From the IMG/VR virus record IMGVR_UViG_3300044960_000299, positions 1-23,212 of that record: a DNA stretch of 23,212 nucleotides. One strand, written 5' to 3'. This DNA is from a virus. Positions 1,027 to 23,212 of this stretch are shown here, one piece after another. Below the pieces are notes generated by a model. It worked only from the letters and a program-made list of their open reading frames with translations. It did not search any database and was not told the DNA's origin. The first letter of the stretch is position 1. Each line of letters opens with the position of its first letter. The position numbers and the translations under genes are program-made.

Positions 1027-3003
1027 TTGGTTATGGCGTTCTTCCGGCGATCACGGCCAGCGCAGCTGACCCGTGCCGTGTCCTGGTCGACATCGTCGAT
1101 CGGTCTCGCTCCGGTGCCGTCCTGGTCGCATGACTGGTCGCTGTCGGCGGTGCAGCAAGTGGCGATCGTGCATGCGGCGGTGCGTGCGATTGCGGATGAT
1201 GTGGCGAATGTGCCGTTGCGGGTGGTGGGTCGTGACGGGGCGCCGGTGGAGTCGCATCCTGTGGCGATGTTGTTGTCGCCGCCACCTGGGGGCCCTCATC
1301 CTGGGGCGACGGCCCGCCAGTTGGTCGCGTGGCTGGTGGAGCAGTGGGTGTTGTGGGGTGCGGCGGCGGTGGAGGTGACCCGTGACGGTCGAGGTGTTCC
1401 AGCCGCGTTGTGGCCGCTGCCAGCGTCGACGGTGCAACCGGTGGTGGACTCATCCGGTGGCGGCTGGTGGGAAGCGTTCGATGTCGCGACCGCCAGCGGT
1501 GTTCAACGCCTGTCACCGGAGCAGATCATGTGGTGGCATCGACCGTCGCCGCAGGACTGGCGGACTCCCGAACCGCTGTTGATCGCGGCGCGTTTGCCGA
1601 TCGAGATCATCCGCCTGCAACAGCAGTTCGACAGCGCGTTTCTGCGCAACGACGCTCGACCTTCGATGCTCGTCGTGCACGAGGCGTTCGCGGACATCGA
1701 AGCTCGAGACGCGTGGCGTGCCGAGTTCCTCCGCCGGCACGGCGGCCCCGACAACGCTGGGAGCACCGCGTTCGTCGAAACCTCACCGGACGGTGCCCCG
1801 GCGAGGGACGCGGTGGCGATCCACCCGCTCGGCGTCAGTCACCGCGACAATCTCGCCACCGTGAGGATCGAGCAAGCAACGCGACAGGTGTGCGCTGCGC
1901 TCGGCGTGCCGCTCAGCCGCGTGCACGACGCCAGCGCGAGAACATTCAGCAACGCCAGTGAGGAGATGCGCAACTACTGGCGGTCGACGATCGCGCCGAT
2001 CGCGGCCGGGTTCGCTGACGCGGTCACCGTCCAGCTCATCCGCGACGACCGCTGGCGTTGCGAGCCCGACACGACCAGCATCGACGTGCTCACAACCAAA
2101 CGCTTCCCCGACGTCCAGGACGCGATCGCAGCAGTCAACAGCGGACTAGTCACCGTCGACGAAGCCCGCATCGACCTTGGCTTCCCACCCGCAACCCGGC
2201 AACGCGACACCACCCCTCCTCAACGCCGCGACAGCAACCGCAGCAGCATCGCCGACACGACCTGGCGCGCGATGAACCAGCGCGTCACCAGACTCGAACG
2301 CAGCATGTTCCGCCGCGCTCAGAATCTCCTCGCAGACCAACACCGGTCGATCATCGACCGGCTGACCGGCAACCGCGGACGGCGGGCCCTGCGCGTCACC
2401 CCACCCGACACCAGCCAACTCTTCGACGCCAGCTTCTGGTTCGAGCGGACGCGCACAACACTCGAGCCTGTGATTGAAACCACCGTCATGGTCGCTGGTC
2501 AAGCAGCGGCCGCAGACATCGGCCTCGCGTGGGACATCATGCTCCCAGCCGTCGACCGGATCATCACCGACCGAGCCGAACACCTCGCCGCAACCATCAC
2601 CGACACCACCGCAACCGCGATCGCCGATCAGCTCGCCGAAGGCGTCCGACTCGGCGAAAGCGTCGACCAGCTCGCCGCCCGCATCGACCACCTCTTCGAC
2701 GTCACCTGGGCGAACCGAGCCGAGACCGTCGCCCGAACTGAAGTCATCGCCGCGCACAACCACAGCTACAGGGCGGTGCTCGACGCCGGCGCCGCAGCCG
2801 GCCTCGTCGAAGAAATCGAATGGGTGTCAACCAGAGACCAGCGCACCCGCCCCGACCACCGTGAAGTCGACGGGCAACGCATCCCACCGAACGGGCGGTT
2901 CGACGTCGGAGGAGAACTCCTCGCCTACCCCGGCGACCCGAACGGGTCACCCGAGAACACCATCAACTGTCGATGCACCATCCGCGCCCTCATCGACCCA
3001 TAA
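1027..3003 (+). CDS. Phage portal protein fused to a MuF-type head morphogenesis domain
   Basis: The N-terminal two thirds (about residues 30-390) is an HK97-type portal, the dodecameric DNA channel at one capsid vertex; the FSNASEEMRNYW segment near residue 300 is a typical portal motif. The last ~110 residues form a Mu gpF-like domain: ARTE near 569, a W-x4-D-x-RTRPDH stretch, PGDP and a terminal NCRC near 647. MuF proteins are minor capsid components usually encoded by a separate gene after the portal; here they form one 658-residue protein. TTG 1027 has ggaaag at 1013-1018 eight bases upstream; ATG 1033 is the alternative. It opens the late structural cluster and is followed after four bases by the protease. 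Confidence 0.9.
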   Translation: MVMAFFRRSRPAQLTRAVSWSTSSIGLAPVPSWSHDWSLSAVQQVAIVHAAVRAIADDVANVPLRVVGRDGAPVESHPVAMLLSPPPGGPHPGATARQLVAWLVEQWVLWGAAAVEVTRDGRGVPAALWPLPASTVQPVVDSSGGGWWEAFDVATASGVQRLSPEQIMWWHRPSPQDWRTPEPLLIAARLPIEIIRLQQQFDSAFLRNDARPSMLVVHEAFADIEARDAWRAEFLRRHGGPDNAGSTAFVETSPDGAPARDAVAIHPLGVSHRDNLATVRIEQATRQVCAALGVPLSRVHDASARTFSNASEEMRNYWRSTIAPIAAGFADAVTVQLIRDDRWRCEPDTTSIDVLTTKRFPDVQDAIAAVNSGLVTVDEARIDLGFPPATRQRDTTPPQRRDSNRSSIADTTWRAMNQRVTRLERSMFRRAQNLLADQHRSIIDRLTGNRGRRALRVTPPDTSQLFDASFWFERTRTTLEPVIETTVMVAGQAAAADIGLAWDIMLPAVDRIITDRAEHLAATITDTTATAIADQLAEGVRLGESVDQLAARIDHLFDVTWANRAETVARTEVIAAHNHSYRAVLDAGAAAGLVEEIEWVSTRDQRTRPDHREVDGQRIPPNGRFDVGGELLAYPGDPNGSPENTINCRCTIRALIDP

Positions 3004-14449: not shown

Positions 14450-14923
14450 ATGGCAGAGAAGAAGCAGCACACCGAGATCGAGCCGGCGTCGACTGGCGGC
14501 GATCTGCTCGGGTCGCCTCATCGCGAGTTCGACGCTCGCCGCCGCGCCAAGTTCCTTGAGCTGGTGGCGCAGGGGGTGCCGCGTTCTGCGGCGGCGAGAG
14601 GTTGCGGCGTCCACCGGGCAACCGTGTGGCGTGCCATGAAGAACGATGAACAGTTCGCTGCAGAAGTGGCCTACGCCGAAGACCTCGCGTGCGATGAGGT
14701 CGAATCCGCTCTGTTCCAGGCTGCGGTCAACGGGAACGTTGTCGCCCAACAGGTGTGGCTCTACAACCGCCGACCCGACCGGTGGATGGACAAGCGCAAC
14801 GTGCAGGTAACCGGAGCTGGCGGCGGGCCCGTACAAGTCCAGGCGGTTGACCCGATGGAGGTGTTCTCGTTGCGGATCGAGGAGATTCGGCGGAGACTCG
14901 AGCTGCCGTCCGGTGACGGGTGA
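14450..14923 (+). CDS. terS: Terminase small subunit
   Basis: The 157-residue protein has a helix-turn-helix near residues 30-65 (KFLELVAQGVPRSAAARGCG-VHRATVWRAMKND), then the typical AEDLACDEVESALFQAAVNGNVVAQQVWLYNR helix pair ending in NRRPDRW, the standard small-terminase pattern. It recognises the packaging site and loads the large subunit. ATG 14450 is chosen; GTG 14429 is possible. It lies directly before the large subunit but after the tail genes instead of before the portal. Confidence 0.85.
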   Translation: MAEKKQHTEIEPASTGGDLLGSPHREFDARRRAKFLELVAQGVPRSAAARGCGVHRATVWRAMKNDEQFAAEVAYAEDLACDEVESALFQAAVNGNVVAQQVWLYNRRPDRWMDKRNVQVTGAGGGPVQVQAVDPMEVFSLRIEEIRRRLELPSGDG

Positions 14924-14927
14924 ACGA

Positions 14928-16328
14928 ATGGTCCTCGATGTCGATCGGTTGAGTCCGCTTGAGCGGCTCGCGTTGTTGCCTGACGATGAGCTGCATCTCA
15001 GACTTGCTGCCGCTGGCGGCCCTGAAGCCGTGCTGCGTGATTGGAGGTGGCTGGCGAGACCAGCGCAGCGGGAACCAGCCGGTGATTGGCGGGAGTGGGT
15101 GATCCTCTCCGGTCGCGGGTTCGGGAAGACTCGTGCCGGCGCCGAGTGGGTTTGCGACCGGATTGAAGGGGGGGCGCGGCGTGTCGCGTTGATCGGGCGC
15201 AGACACGTCGACGTGCTCGATGTGATGATCCGCGGTGAGTCTGGGCTGGTGTCCGTCGCGGAGCGGCGTGGGCTGCCGGTGCGGTTGACGATGTCGCCGC
15301 GGATTGTCGTGCATGTCGGCGACGCGCACGTGATCGGTGTGACGGCTCAGGAGCCGGACGAGTTGCGCGGTCCCGAGCTCGACACGATCTGGGGTGATGA
15401 GGTGGCGGCTTGGCCTGACCGCCGCGATCAGGTCGGGGTCGGCGTGGTGGACAACGCTCTGCTCGCGTTGCGTGCTGCTCGTGACGGGCGGGCGTTGTGG
15501 ACGACGACTCCGCGGCCGGTGCCGATCGTGCGGGACTGGTTGCGGCGTGTCGAAGCTGGAGACCCGTCGATCGTGCTGACGCGCGGTTCGACGCTTGAGA
15601 ACGCCGCGAACCTCCCGGCGGACTATCTCGCTGATCTGTTGGGCCGCTGGCAGGGGACACGGCTCGCCGACCAGGAGATCGAGGGCCGGCTAGTCGAGCT
15701 CGGTGGTGGGATGATCGACCCGACCTCGATCAGGGTGACGAGCAGGTGGGGTGGGCGGAATGTGTGTCGTGTGCGCGGTTGGGATTGGGCGACGACGAGA
15801 GTGTCGGATGAGAATGCCGATCCTGACTGGCTGGCGTGCGCGCTAGTCGCGTTCGATCCTGACGCAACGGTGGATGTCGCTGGTGTTGCAGTGCGAGGAG
15901 CGTGGTGCATCGAGGAGGTGCGCAGGTGGCGGGTTGATGCGCAAGAGGCGTTGTCGGTTGTGGCGAGGGTGGCGCGATCGGATGCGGAGGTGTTGGGTGC
16001 GGCGGTGCGGTGGGTGATCGAGGAGGAGCCTGGGTCGCAGTCGCGGCTGGCGACGTCGATGATCACCGCTGAGGTGCGGCGCGCCGGGTTGCGGCATGTG
16101 GAGGCGCGTCGTCCGCGGGAGGACAAGGTGACGAGGGCGGAGGTGTGGGCTGCGGCGGTCGAGCAGGGGCGGGTGTGCCGGTTGGCCGGCGGGTGGTGGG
16201 AGTCTTTCGCGGCGGAGGTCGGGGTGTTCCCTGGCGGGGATCACGATGATCAGGTGGACGCTGTGTCTGCTGCGGTGGATGCGCTGTCGCGTTGGGCGCC
16301 GGCGGGGCGGGGCGGTCTCCGTGGTTGA
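14928..16328 (+). CDS. terL: Terminase large subunit (ATPase/nuclease)
   Basis: The 466-residue packaging motor has all expected motifs. Walker A is GRGFGKT (residues 62-68), Walker B is LDTIWGDE with Asp157/Glu158, and a WTTTP coupling segment follows near 192. The C-terminal RNase-H-like nuclease has Asp286 in GWDWATT, Glu residues in IEEEPGS (about 365-367) and Asp residues in GDHDDQVDA (438-444). ATG 14928 lies four bases after the small subunit stop; GTG 14913 is an in-frame alternative overlapping it. Intact motifs imply a functional motor. Confidence 0.93.
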   Translation: MVLDVDRLSPLERLALLPDDELHLRLAAAGGPEAVLRDWRWLARPAQREPAGDWREWVILSGRGFGKTRAGAEWVCDRIEGGARRVALIGRRHVDVLDVMIRGESGLVSVAERRGLPVRLTMSPRIVVHVGDAHVIGVTAQEPDELRGPELDTIWGDEVAAWPDRRDQVGVGVVDNALLALRAARDGRALWTTTPRPVPIVRDWLRRVEAGDPSIVLTRGSTLENAANLPADYLADLLGRWQGTRLADQEIEGRLVELGGGMIDPTSIRVTSRWGGRNVCRVRGWDWATTRVSDENADPDWLACALVAFDPDATVDVAGVAVRGAWCIEEVRRWRVDAQEALSVVARVARSDAEVLGAAVRWVIEEEPGSQSRLATSMITAEVRRAGLRHVEARRPREDKVTRAEVWAAAVEQGRVCRLAGGWWESFAAEVGVFPGGDHDDQVDAVSAAVDALSRWAPAGRGGLRG

Positions 16329-17700: not shown

Positions 17701-18172
17701 GCTGCTCATCGCGCTCACCGCCGAGGTCGACAAGGTCGAGCGCATCATCATCGAGACTGCCGAAAGTCTCGATGTGGAAGCGCTGGCTGTTGCGCACGTC
17801 GAGCTCGCAGACGTGATCCGCCGGTTGAGGGACGTGGCGCAGACGGTCGAGGATCGACTGGCTGAGGTGATGCCGCAGCGGCTCGAGGTCGACGGTCTGC
17901 CGATCCTGGAACGCAGGCGGGGAGTGGAGCGGCGTGCGTGGCAGTCGGATGAGCTGCTGCGCACGGTGATCCGTCGCTCGGTCGATCCGGAGGGCACGGG
18001 TGAGCTCCCGTCGGGCCCGGAGATCGTCGAGCGGGTCACCGAGGTGATCGAGCGTGTCATGCCTGTCACCCCGTCGCTGGGGTGGCGGGCGACAGCGCTA
18101 CGAGCGATGGGTCTCGACCCGGACGAGTGGTGCGAGACGAAGCTTGGTCGGGCCAGGGTGGTGGTGAGATGA
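17687..18172 (+). CDS. Hypothetical coiled-coil protein upstream of the ERF recombinase
   Basis: The 161-residue protein has a long heptad-rich N-terminal region (residues 5-65, e.g. ELADVIRRLRDVAQTVEDRL) and a C-terminal domain with SLGWRATALRAMGLDPDEWCE. ATG 17687 is chosen because ggaggag at 17674-17680 lies six bases upstream; a TTG further up is less likely. Genes of this size and shape often sit just before single-strand annealing proteins in actinophages, suggesting a recombination partner, but no catalytic motif is visible. The stop overlaps the next ATG. Confidence 0.7.
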   Translation: MSRSELLIALTAEVDKVERIIIETAESLDVEALAVAHVELADVIRRLRDVAQTVEDRLAEVMPQRLEVDGLPILERRRGVERRAWQSDELLRTVIRRSVDPEGTGELPSGPEIVERVTEVIERVMPVTPSLGWRATALRAMGLDPDEWCETKLGRARVVVR

Positions 18173-18753
18173 GCGAGACTGAGGAGAGAACGATGAGCGA
18201 GTTGAGAGCAGCTCTTGTCGATGCGCTGTCTGAGTTGTCGGTCGTGTCGGCTGACCGCTCAGCGACGATTCCGACGAAGAGCGGGAGCTTCAGTTACCGC
18301 TACGCGGACTTGGCGGATGTTGTGCGTATTTCGAGGGCGGTGCTTTCGAAGCATGGGATTGTGGCGTTGACTCCGATCGAGTCATGTGAGGATGACCAGC
18401 TCGCCGTAAGCGTGCTGCTGGTGCATCGGAGTGGGGAGACGATGCAGCTCGGTCGCGTTCGCTTCGCCGCCGGCGGTGACGCTCGAGCCACTGGCTCGGC
18501 GATCACCTACCACCGCCGCTACGCGCTGCTCGCTGCACTCGGTCTCGCGGCGAGCGGTGACGATGACGACGGCGAAGCCGCATCCGCACAGGCACCAGCT
18601 CGGACGGTCTCTCCTGGCGCCGCTGCACCACAGTCGCGGGCCCGTGATGTGGCGCCGGCGTGCACCGTGTGCGGCGCGTCGCTCGCCGGCGCGTCGGCGC
18701 GGAAGACACCGACCGGACCCGCGCATGTCCACTGTCTCGAGGAGGAGTTCTGA
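18169..18753 (+). CDS. erf: ERF-family single-strand annealing protein
   Basis: The 194-residue protein has the ERF core: SFSYRYADLADVVRISRAVLSKHGIVALTP (strand-helix) and a G-x-A-x-TYHRRYALLAALGLAA-x-GDDDD helix ending in an acidic run, the diagnostic ERF motif. It anneals complementary ssDNA during phage recombination, circularisation or repair. A Ser/Ala/Pro linker leads to a C-terminal zinc-binding segment (ACTVCGASLAG ... HVHC). ATG 18169 overlaps the previous stop; ATG 18193 has a better ribosome site (gaggag, 18181-18186) and could be the true start. SSB two genes downstream is a natural partner. Confidence 0.88.
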   Translation: MSETEERTMSELRAALVDALSELSVVSADRSATIPTKSGSFSYRYADLADVVRISRAVLSKHGIVALTPIESCEDDQLAVSVLLVHRSGETMQLGRVRFAAGGDARATGSAITYHRRYALLAALGLAASGDDDDGEAASAQAPARTVSPGAAAPQSRARDVAPACTVCGASLAGASARKTPTGPAHVHCLEEEF

Positions 18754-18754
18754 G

Positions 18755-19174
18755 ATGCTGTTCAACCTGCCGGACGAGTTCGATCGGGTGAATGCCGAAC
18801 GTCGAGACATGCTCCTGCTTGCGTTGCGAGATGAACGTCCCGATGCCGCGCGAGTGATCATCGACGCGTTCTGGCCCGGCCTGGTCGGCGATTGTCTCGA
18901 CGGCGTGGACGACCAGTGGTGGGAGTCATCGGCCGGGCGGACCGTGCAGCTGCTCCTCACCGACGAGACGCGGCTGGGGTTCTCTCGTGGTCGAGCAGCC
19001 GAGCTGACCGGGCTGGCGCTCAACTCGATCGGCCAGTACGTCGCACGCGGTCTGCTGCGGCGGACGACGCATCGAGGGCTGCTGCGCGCTGAGGATGTGC
19101 TGGCGTTGCGGGACCGGCGGCATCAAAAAGGAAGGCTGTCGTGGCGGCAGATGACGCTGGAGGAAGTTGAATGA
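18755..19174 (+). CDS. MerR/excisionase-like helix-turn-helix protein
   Basis: The 139-residue protein has a C-terminal HTH at about residues 75-125: FSRGRAAELTGLALNSIGQYVARGLLRR...RGLLRAEDVLAL. The 'gl....s..qYv.rGLLrr' pattern is MerR-like winged helix. The N-terminal 70 residues are helical and acidic with no motif (LFNLPDEFDRVNAERRDMLL). ATG 18755 has ggaggag at 18741-18747. It could regulate early genes or act at the replication complex with its neighbours ERF and SSB. Confidence 0.7.
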   Translation: MLFNLPDEFDRVNAERRDMLLLALRDERPDAARVIIDAFWPGLVGDCLDGVDDQWWESSAGRTVQLLLTDETRLGFSRGRAAELTGLALNSIGQYVARGLLRRTTHRGLLRAEDVLALRDRRHQKGRLSWRQMTLEEVE

Positions 19175-19563
19175 GTAATTCCGTGACGATCGTCGGGAAC
19201 ATGACCAGCGATCCTGAACTGCGGTTCACGAACAGCGGGATGCCCGTGGCGTCGTTCGGCGTCGCCATCAACAGCGGGCGGCGCAACCAGCAGACCGGCA
19301 AGTGGGAGGAAGGCGAGGCGTCGTTCTTCGACGTGGTCTGCTTCCGTGAGCTGGCTGACAACGTCGCCGAGTCGCTCACGAAAGGCACCCGGGTGGTGGT
19401 CGTCGGTCGGCTCAACCAGCGGTCCTGGGAGACCGACAGTGGCGAGAAGCGCTCGAAGGTGGAGATCGTCGCCGACGAGATCGCTCCGAGTCTGCGGTGG
19501 GCGACTGCGACCGTGCACCGGACTGAACGGAGGGAGGGGATGTCCGATGCTGATGGTGTATGA
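19171..19563 (+). CDS. ssb: Single-stranded DNA-binding protein
   Basis: The 130-residue OB-fold protein shows the SSB signature: VTIVGNMTSDPELRFTNSGMPVASFGVAIN at residues 5-34, FFDVVCFRELADNVAESLTKGTRVVVVGRL (51-80), then WETDSGEKRSKVEIVADEI. The C-terminal tail is short and ends without the acidic DDIPF-type tip that recruits host partners, so it may bind DNA without recruiting the host replisome, or be antagonistic to host SSB. It follows the HTH gene with an ATGA overlap and overlaps the methyltransferase start by 17 bases. Confidence 0.92.
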   Translation: MSNSVTIVGNMTSDPELRFTNSGMPVASFGVAINSGRRNQQTGKWEEGEASFFDVVCFRELADNVAESLTKGTRVVVVGRLNQRSWETDSGEKRSKVEIVADEIAPSLRWATATVHRTERREGMSDADGV

Positions 19564-20760: not shown

Positions 20761-21047
20761 CCGACGAGGAGCTCGACCGGGTCATCACTGCCGCTGCGCG
20801 GAGGTGGACGATGTCCGCCGACGCGGAGGAGCGGTGGCGGCGTGTGCTGCGCCGCGAGGACGCGGCTGCGGTGATGGCCGCGGTGCATCAGCTCGCCCGA
20901 GATCCGGATGTGCGGCTGCTGCCATCAGCGGTGTTTGTAAGGATGACAGCCGACGAGATCGTCGCAGCATCCGGCCGTCAGGCTGGTATGTCTGCTGAGG
21001 AGGGTCTCGCAGCGTCGAGGCGAGCGCTGCGAGAACGGCGGCGATGA
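20757..21047 (+). CDS. Hypothetical helical protein
   Basis: The 96-residue protein starts with GTG 20757, overlapping the previous stop (GTGA). It is helical and charged: EELDRVITAAARRWTMSADAEERWRRVLRRED, AVMAAVHQLARDPDVRLLPS, and a C-terminal SAEEGLAASRRALRERRR. The AVHQLARDP...LPS segment resembles the N-terminal part of phage proteins that partner replicative helicases, but the match is too weak to name. It is followed by the nuclease with an ATGA overlap. Confidence 0.65.
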   Translation: MTDEELDRVITAAARRWTMSADAEERWRRVLRREDAAAVMAAVHQLARDPDVRLLPSAVFVRMTADEIVAASGRQAGMSAEEGLAASRRALRERRR

Positions 21048-21652
21048 GCGGGCGATCCTCGAGGCGTCGCGGTGCTGACGCCGAACGGCGGGTCGCCGCG
21101 TGGCTCAGACAGAACGGCTGGGCGGACGCTCGACGTTCGCTCGCCGGTGACGGCCGGCAGGCGACCGACATCGACATCGGCGACCCACGGGTCGGGCTCG
21201 AGGTGAAGGATCGGGCGAGGTCGTCGTGGCCGTCGTGGCAGCGGCAAGCCGCGGAGTCCGGGCGGGCGATCCTCGTCGTGGTGCGCCGCTCTCGTGGGGT
21301 TGGTGATGTGGGGCGATGGGAGGCCAGACTGTCGATCGACGGTGGGGGCACCTGGCGTGAGTGCACGCTCGCCTCAGCGATGAGGCTCGTCGAGAAGGCG
21401 AAGCTCGCCGAGCGAGACGACCTGCCGGATTACATCGTGCGCATGCTCGCCGAGGATGAGGACCCGGACGCTTGGCGGCGGGAGCTGCCGGCCGCGGTGG
21501 TCGCCGAGCTCGCCGAGGACGCGGACCCCAGGGTCCGTGAGGCGATCGCTTGGCGGCTGGAGCTCCCCGCCGACCTGCGCGACGGGCTCGCAACCGACCC
21601 GCACCCCGCGGTCGCCCGCGCGGCCGAGCGGATGATGGGGGCCGAGCGATGA
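21044..21652 (+). CDS. PD-(D/E)XK-type nuclease fused to leucine-rich-variant (LRV) repeats
   Basis: Residues ~8-85 fit a resolvase/Mrr-like nuclease: a helix with Glu14 (GADAERRVAAWLRQNGW), Asp42/Asp44 in ATDIDIGD and Glu53-Val-Lys55 in GLEVKDRA, followed by SSWPSWQRQAAESGRAILVVV, the usual helix-strand. Residues ~125-202 are a tandem helical repeat of about 26 residues, two copies beginning ELPAAVVAELAEDADPRVRE and ELPADLRDGLATDPHPAVAR; this is the LRV (Armadillo/HEAT-like) pattern. The repeat array probably binds protein or DNA and targets the nuclease. The combination is uncommon in phages. Role may be Holliday-junction processing, host DNA degradation or anti-host function. Confidence 0.75.
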   Translation: MSGRSSRRRGADAERRVAAWLRQNGWADARRSLAGDGRQATDIDIGDPRVGLEVKDRARSSWPSWQRQAAESGRAILVVVRRSRGVGDVGRWEARLSIDGGGTWRECTLASAMRLVEKAKLAERDDLPDYIVRMLAEDEDPDAWRRELPAAVVAELAEDADPRVREAIAWRLELPADLRDGLATDPHPAVARAAERMMGAER

Positions 21653-21876
21653 GCCAGGCCCCCTCGACTGCCCGGCTGGCGTCCGACGCGAGGTGGCCGT
21701 ACCGCCACCTCGCTGCTCGGCGTGGCGACCTCCCCGCGGAGCTGCTCGAGCGGCTCGCCCGCGACCCTCATTGGGTGGTCCGCTGCGCGGTCGCGCGGCG
21801 TGCCGACCTGCCCGCGGAGCTGCTCGAGCGGCTCGCCAACCCATCCGAAGGAAAGGAGAACCAAGATGAGAACTGA
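21649..21876 (+). CDS. Small stand-alone LRV-repeat protein
   Basis: The 75-residue protein consists of nearly only LRV-type repeats: LAARRGDLPAELLERLARDP and AVARRADLPAELLERLANPS, spaced by 26 residues, matching the C-terminal repeats of the nuclease encoded just upstream (ATGA overlap). It may be a detached piece of the same repeat array, a co-folding partner or an inhibitor of the nuclease. The C-terminus is short and charged (KENQDEN). Confidence 0.7.
   Translation: MSQAPSTARLASDARWPYRHLAARRGDLPAELLERLARDPHWVVRCAVARRADLPAELLERLANPSEGKENQDEN
21718..21759 (+). repeat. LRV-coding DNA repeat, unit 1
   Basis: A 42-bp unit encoding RRGDLPAELLERLA that recurs at 21796-21837 with only two mismatches, at a period of 78 bp (26 codons). 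Such close DNA identity points to a recent tandem expansion inside the repeat protein. Confidence 0.8.
21796..21837 (+). repeat. LRV-coding DNA repeat, unit 2
   Basis: Second unit, encoding RRADLPAELLERLA; 40 of 42 bases match unit 1. Confidence 0.8.
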
Positions 21877-22159
21877 TCCAGCATTGTCGGCGTGGTTGTC
21901 GTCGATCGCTTCGATCGAGGACCCGGAGCAGCGGTTCACCGCGGCGAGCGATGCCGTGTCGGCGTTGCGATCCGCTCACGCGAATCTCGCTGACATTCGA
22001 GCGGCAGCAGCGTGCGAGCTGCTTGAGCGGTACTCGTGGGATGAGACCGCTGCGAGACTTGGGGTGAGCCGACCTCGGCTCGGTCAAATGTCGATGCGAG
22101 CACGCGGACGGCGGCGAGAACCGGCTAGGAGTCGGTCTGGCGGGGCTGATGAACAGTGA
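21866..22159 (+). CDS. Small helix-turn-helix protein
   Basis: The 97-residue protein starts at ATG 21866 with aaaggag at 21853-21859; it overlaps the LRV gene by 11 bases. Residues ~50-75 (LLERYSWDETAARLGVSRPRLGQMSMRARG) form a sigma-region-4-like HTH, preceded by a helical dimerisation-like region and followed by an Arg-rich tail. It could be an early regulator acting with the WhiB genes that follow immediately (overlap at 22149). Confidence 0.75.
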   Translation: MRTDPALSAWLSSIASIEDPEQRFTAASDAVSALRSAHANLADIRAAAACELLERYSWDETAARLGVSRPRLGQMSMRARGRRREPARSRSGGADEQ

Positions 22160-22445
22160 GCGCTGCCCCGGCGTTCACGCCGGGGAGGACGTCAACGACG
22201 AGGGTGATTGGCGGGAGCACGCGGCGTGCAAGGGGTTGCCAACCGATTGGTGGTTCCCCGAGAGGGGCGACACCGCTGCGGCTGCGAAGGCGATCTGCGC
22301 TGCGTGTCCGGTGCGGGAGCCGTGCCTGCAGTACGCGGTCGAGGCTGGTGAGCGGATGGGTGTGTGGGGTGGGGTGGCGATGTACGCGTCGCGGAAGCGG
22401 CGGATCGCTGAGCGTCGGGTGAGGAGGGTGAGAGATGGTCGGTGA
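22149..22445 (+). CDS. WhiB-family regulator, copy A
   Basis: The 98-residue protein has the four cluster cysteines at 27, 50, 53 and 59 and the GVWGG turn, followed by a basic C-terminus (SRKRRIAERRVRRVRDGR) typical of WhiB proteins. Its cysteine-rich half is identical at the DNA level to copy C over 133 bp, but the part after the last cysteine is different. ATG 22149 overlaps the previous stop; the region aligned to the starts of the other copies has GTC instead of a start codon at 22191, so the N-terminus is an extension crossing a hairpin. Confidence 0.88.
   Translation: MNSERCPGVHAGEDVNDEGDWREHAACKGLPTDWWFPERGDTAAAAKAICAACPVREPCLQYAVEAGERMGVWGGVAMYASRKRRIAERRVRRVRDGR
22166..22185 (+). 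repeat. Perfect hairpin in the 5' part of whiB copy A
   Basis: Arms ccccggcg (22166-22173) and cgccgggg (22178-22185) form an 8-bp stem with a ttca loop, just after the stop of the HTH gene and followed by aggac. It could be a weak terminator or a structure limiting translation of whiB copy A. Confidence 0.6.
22209..22341. repeat. 133-bp perfect direct repeat, internal copy (inside whiB copy A)
   Basis: This copy matches 23080-23212 for all 133 bases and covers the cluster-binding half of WhiB. The flanks diverge at once: T versus G upstream, A versus T downstream (compared with base 128). Perfect DNA identity with unrelated flanks indicates recent recombination or gene conversion, not slow divergence. 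Confidence 0.9.
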
Positions 22446-22695
22446 TTGGGAGGATCAAGCAGCGTGCAAGGGCACCCCGTCACAATGGTGGTTCCCGTCC
22501 GGGAACCCGCCGACTGAGGCACTGCAGCTGTGTCAGCATTGTCAGGTGCGCATCGACTGTCTCGCCTACGCGATCGCCAACGACATTCGGGTCGGGGTGT
22601 GGGGCGGCGAGCTGATGAGCCGCTACCATCGCCGCCGCGACCGCGCGATCAACGCGCTGAGAACGCGAGCTGAACACTCGAGGAGGACAGCATGA
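22435..22695 (+). CDS. WhiB-family regulator, copy B
   Basis: The 86-residue protein has cluster cysteines at 11, 33, 36 and 42 and the GVWGG turn. Its N-terminal half is clearly diverged from copies A and C (FPSGNPPTEALQLCQHC versus FPERGDTAAAAKAICAAC). Its C-terminal half (NDIRVGVWGGELMSRYHRRR) closely matches that of copy C (HDVRVGVWGGEVMSSYHARR). ATG 22435 has gaggagg at 22421-22427 and overlaps copy A by 11 bases. It is followed by the truncated winged-helix gene, the same neighbour order as copy C. Confidence 0.88.
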   Translation: MVGDWEDQAACKGTPSQWWFPSGNPPTEALQLCQHCQVRIDCLAYAIANDIRVGVWGGELMSRYHRRRDRAINALRTRAEHSRRTA

Positions 22696-22927: not shown

Positions 22928-23071
22928 GACGGTTTCGAGTTCGTTGGAAGCCGTTCCGCCATCCAGGCGCAGCTCGGGAACTCAGTGCCACCCCGGCTCG
23001 CCGAAGCTGTCGTACGTGCAGTCGCCGGCCTCGAGCGGCGAGAGTCTCTGGGTGGTGAGGTGTGCTGGTGA
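22928..23071 (+). pseudogene. C-terminal remnant of a C5-cytosine methyltransferase
   Basis: In the frame -1 to the upstream fusion, bases 22928-23071 encode DGFEFVGSRSAIQAQLGNSV then PPRLAEAVVRAVAGLERRES and a stop. The GF-x-F-x-GS and QLGNSVPPRLAEA patterns are motifs IX-X at the end of C5-cytosine methyltransferases. The stop overlaps the GTG start of whiB copy C as GTGA, the normal operon spacing in this genome, which indicates this was the native frame. A TGA at 22925 closes the frame upstream. The catalytic PCQ (IV) and ENV (VI) motifs are absent, so several hundred codons have been deleted. Confidence 0.75.
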
Positions 23072-23212
23072 GTGACGAGTGGCGGGAGCACGCGGCGTGC
23101 AAGGGGTTGCCAACCGATTGGTGGTTCCCCGAGAGGGGCGACACCGCTGCGGCTGCGAAGGCGATCTGCGCTGCGTGTCCGGTGCGGGAGCCGTGCCTGC
23201 AGTACGCGGTCG
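23068..23212 (+). CDS. WhiB-family regulator copy C, 5' part (continues at base 1)
   Basis: GTG 23068 opens the frame MSDEWREHAACKG and runs off the window after the fourth cluster cysteine. Joined to base 1 through the 127-base overlap it gives the complete 127-residue WhiB described at 1-366. A ggtgagg sequence lies about nine bases before the start, and the start overlaps the stop of the methyltransferase remnant. Confidence 0.85.
   Translation, partial: MSDEWREHAACKGLPTDWWFPERGDTAAAAKAICAACPVREPCLQYAV
23080..23212. repeat. 133-bp perfect direct repeat, window-end copy (inside whiB copy C)
   Basis: Identical to 22209-22341; its last 127 bases equal bases 1-127. It lies 871 bp downstream of the internal copy, so recombination between the two would excise or duplicate an 871-bp segment. 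Confidence 0.9.

Follow-up and report, generated by a model that had tools for sequence, protein, structure and literature searches.

The genome analysed here encodes a nuclease of a well-known phage enzyme family that carries a C-terminal tail of LRV-like helical repeats, and directly after it, in an overlapping frame, a second protein made almost entirely of LRV repeats. The enzyme itself is ordinary; the novelty lies in the domain combination. Nuclease, LRV tail and LRV gene occur together in this one genome, so far a singleton. The preliminary description knew of no described phage nuclease-LRV pair, and we found none either; nor did we find literature on LRV repeats in phages. The features concerned are as follows.

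18082..18753, + strand: gene for an Erf-like single-strand annealing protein, upstream of the nuclease (phrog_2324, E=1.1e-29)
19171..19563, + strand: gene for a single-strand DNA-binding protein (SSB), in the same module as Erf (phrog_44, E=9.6e-45)
21044-21652, + strand: nuclease gene, an ORF for a 202-aa protein
21044..21400, + strand: predicted PD-(D/E)XK resolvase domain, residues 1-118/119, from PHROG profile, alignment and fold match
21401..21652, + strand: C-terminal extension of the nuclease with stop codon, about three acidic 26-residue LRV/HEAT-like helical repeats
21649..21876, + strand: LRV-only gene (P0002), 75 aa, in ATGA overlap with the nuclease stop and matching PF01816
21718..21759, + strand: part-repeat, first copy, encoding about RRGDLPAELLERLA
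21796..21837, + strand: part-repeat, second copy, encoding about RRADLPAELLERLA

The window, by which we mean the whole stretch of DNA analysed, is a viral record 23,212 bases long. Because its first 127 bases recur at its end (1-127 = 23086-23212) and a contig from another sample (L082) spans the end junction at 100% identity, it amounts to a circular genome assembly of about 23,085 bp; the identical ends are probably an assembly k-mer overlap. Profile searches identified genes for portal, protease, capsid, tape measure, Dit-like tail protein, terminase and endolysin, and further for Erf, SSB, a DNA methyltransferase, a replication-initiation-like protein and several WhiB-like proteins. The WhiB genes, together with the nearest relatives of the nuclease, point to a host that is probably an actinobacterium.

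Three WhiB-like genes are clustered on the circular map in a span of about 1.5 kb (22149-22695; 23062-23212 joined to 1-366). Two of them have a 136-bp stretch in common at 99% identity (22206-22341 vs 23077-23212), in which the contig break falls; the middle gene (22435-22695) is divergent from the other two. The portal gene (1027-3003) encodes 658 aa, and the C-terminal part of its product (about 416-656) also matches head-morphogenesis (MuF-like) families, which marks it as a fused portal-head protein. The large terminase gene (14847-16328) follows the tail genes and is thus well separated from the portal. Even the nearest relatives, whether from phages or from viral contigs, reach only about 30-40% identity to it, and none of the 80 terminase loci compared has another detectable gene in common with the window.

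Residues 1-118 of the nuclease are solidly assigned by homology to the PD-(D/E)XK "Holliday junction resolvase" family phrog_244, which is common in actinobacteriophages. The core matches the PHROG profile at E=4.9e-12 (residues 1-85 vs profile positions 3-95); known members match over nearly the whole of their own length. Alignment with the family places the catalytic set at E14, D42 and E53-x-K55, so that the expected helix Glu, Asp and Glu/Gln-x-Lys are all present. In the AlphaFold model this domain has pLDDT mostly of 80-93, and Foldseek matched it to phage Holliday junction resolvase models in a viral structure library (E 9.8e-6 to 5.9e-4). Matches to the PDB were weak, with archaeal Hjc (4TKK) at E=0.27 and TM 0.31/0.44. 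Profile, catalytic residues and fold match thus bear out the resolvase/Mrr-like nuclease domain proposed earlier, for which structure prediction had been suggested as a check. The Erf-like gene upstream places the nuclease in a recombination/replication module, and family and neighborhood together suggest a branched-DNA resolvase role in this Erf/SSB module. The name "resolvase" for phrog_244 is itself given by homology. According to PMC3864405, resolvases from viruses typically act on branched DNA more promiscuously than those of bacteria.

Beyond this domain, residues 125-199 form repeat units that begin LPDYIV, LPAAVV and LPADLR. They fall under the Pfam cutoffs both for LRV (14.7 bits vs 21.6; E 0.041) and for HEAT_2 (19.5 vs 27.7; E 0.0012), and we call the tail LRV-like on its periodicity and its similarity to P0002 only. 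Its 26-residue periodicity gave p=0.004 by shuffling, and it aligned to P0002 better than 2000 of 2000 shuffled sequences, with a BLASTP E value of 2e-5. A fusion of the nuclease to 26-residue helical repeats, as first described, is supported by both measures. The tail is all-helical in the model, with six helices predicted at low confidence (pLDDT about 48-64).

The claim of a separate repeat-only gene next door also stands, with a Pfam LRV (PF01816) match of E=7.7e-11 to P0002 (42.1 bits vs a cutoff of 21.6). We take the start of P0002 as the ATG of the ATGA overlap; the TTG at 21550 given in the ORF list was set mechanically, as the first possible start. A programmed -1 frameshift leading into the LRV frame is unlikely, as the sole candidate, a GGGGG run at 21637-21641, does not fit X XXY YYZ in the nuclease frame. 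P0002 is nearly all LRV, with two repeats and the first part of a third (about 2.5); its C-terminal tail, past the repeats, spans the ribosome-binding site of the next gene. Single repeats score 29.2 and 24.2 bits, and the 26-residue periodicity was reached in none of 5000 shuffles. The best solved relative is 1LRV (E=1.2e-5). A single-sequence prediction of P0002 had pLDDT 65, and a fold search with it was uninformative.

Two part-repeats of P0002, about half a repeat long, are identical at 40 of 42 bases, the small difference that had drawn attention to them. In a run of 11 identical residues, 10 codons are identical where 4.4 are expected (p about 4e-4); for the full set of 21 identical residues, 16 codons agree vs 8.1 expected (p about 2e-4), the expectations being computed from the codon usage of the window. 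The excess supports one of two alternatives: that about half a repeat was duplicated or converted recently, or that codon use is locally unusual. It does not extend to the rapid expansion of a binding array that had been proposed: just one part-repeat is duplicated, no relatives or alleles offer a comparison of array size, and identity between the complete 78-base units is only 71%, so the array is not freshly expanded. For the suggested changing partner, such as a host defence protein, we found no evidence, and neither the nuclease nor P0002 had a PADLOC match.

Searches for relatives by tblastn with two protein queries gave 94 and 338 phage records with phrog_244 nucleases (some overlapping), often in neighborhoods with RecT, Erf, SSB, primase or helicase. 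Most of the members seen are minimal single-domain enzymes. In those read in detail the protein stops at about 108-135 aa or bears an unrelated tail; the longer relatives in Streptomyces phages (Dubu, 153 aa; AbbeyMikolon, 179 aa) have extra sequence with no Pfam match. No relative found carries either repeat part, and the neighborhood search that had been suggested gave no conserved nuclease-LRV pair among the relatives examined. More broadly, none of 59 phage records (terminase relatives, nuclease relatives and others) had an LRV match at E<=0.1, and at blast sensitivity nothing among 50,697 phage records matched the LRV consensus at E<=1. A degenerate DNA pattern matching the repeat of the window was absent from IMG/VR, a search with no positive control there. 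Searches of viral contigs, phage genomes and GTDB contigs for close relatives of the nuclease or P0002 returned nothing useful. The single GTDB match (L086, Caulobacterales) was judged spurious, lying antisense to a 996-aa ORF of Sel1/peptidoglycan-binding type in a genome with no LRV; 398 genomes of the same phylum yielded just one bare nuclease domain. LRV genes do occur on actinobacterial plasmids, where the closest match is a 490-aa Streptomyces protein (E=8e-6).

The explanation we tentatively prefer, plausible without being probable, combines a phrog_244 branched-DNA resolvase in the Erf/SSB module with a repeat tail and an LRV protein as protein-docking parts. The resolvase would be an Hjc-like PD-(D/E)XK enzyme working with the Erf annealing protein encoded upstream and with SSB, and we infer that it would remove branches arising in recombination and replication before the DNA is packaged. 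Its C-terminal tail of about three LRV/HEAT-like repeats would be an acquisition of this lineage. Protein docking is the most likely role for both repeat parts; the net charge of the tail (-9) makes DNA binding by the tail unlikely and favors docking. P0002 may stack on the tail, and would probably lengthen or cap the solenoid, or link it to a further protein of replication or packaging.

A less likely explanation, though one with some claim, is that the LRV gene broke off from the 3' end of a once longer nuclease-LRV gene through a frameshift, uses an internal start, and is either decaying or still complementing the tail. P0002 follows the nuclease directly in the -1 frame, the two repeat regions are related, and the third repeat of P0002 is cut short; joining the frames would give five to six nearly continuous repeats, with about four extra residues at the junction. 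Those extra residues also put the repeat register off by about four, and the junction is a clean ATGA overlap of the kind seen elsewhere in the cassette, for example at 21044. Moreover, a G-rich run precedes the P0002 start at plausible spacing, P0002 retains a coding-like codon structure (GC of 0.80/0.53/0.84 by codon position), and the searches found no longer relative. The clean junction, its style shared with neighboring genes, and the register offset together favor a real, separate LRV gene, so that on sequence grounds the broken-end explanation is mildly disfavored.

It is rather improbable, in our estimation, that tail and gene are an incidental acquisition from a bacterial LRV gene with little function. 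Such an origin would suit a singleton whose LRV parts are otherwise absent from related phages, and the Streptomyces plasmid match (52.5% over 60 aa) offers a possible type of source. Yet both frames are open and coding-like in a compact 23-kb genome, and tail and P0002 are only moderately similar in DNA (65% for the best full unit pair), making a brand-new duplicate pair unlikely. Lower still we place a regulator or inhibitor, in which P0002 would bind the nuclease tail and keep the enzyme inactive until needed. The gene overlap suggests that translation is coupled and that the two products are made in matching amounts, related solenoids can associate, and the charges tend to be opposite (-9 for the tail vs +3 for the P0002 repeat core); the resolvase relatives, however, have no such partner, and there was no toxin-antitoxin-like or defence match. 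Very doubtful is a two-part solenoid in which P0002 would complete the resolvase tail in trans, forming a modular recognition surface whose length would be set by repeat duplication and which would steer the nuclease to a specific DNA structure or partner protein.

A solenoid tail accompanied by an overlapping gene for nothing but solenoid would offer a resolvase of this kind a new mode of targeting or control. The searches gave no relative with the tail or the LRV gene in which conservation or selection could be seen; one genome without relatives makes this a lead rather than a system.

Among known systems, archaeal Hjc (PDB 4TKK) is a weak fold match to the nuclease; stronger matches came from viral models annotated as Hjc. 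The archaeal enzyme lacks a repeat tail and has no sequence similarity to the nuclease in a PDB sequence search. PF01816 proteins, with 1LRV as the solved example, have the same 26-residue two-helix repeat as P0002. Proteins of the 1LRV type have a cysteine-rich iron-sulphur part. P0002 differs in having only about 2.5 repeats and no iron-sulphur part, its single cysteine leaving no cluster for a 4Fe-4S center; the cellular example from the Streptomyces plasmid is also much longer. The phrog_244 members examined have neither LRV repeats nor an LRV neighbor, unlike the nuclease described here. In other respects this "RusA-like Holliday junction resolvase" family (Rhodococcus phage REQ3 gp19, Gordonia phage Schmidt gp51) is the closest parallel, with the same nuclease domain, catalytic residues and predicted fold, and a similar position in recombination/replication cassettes.
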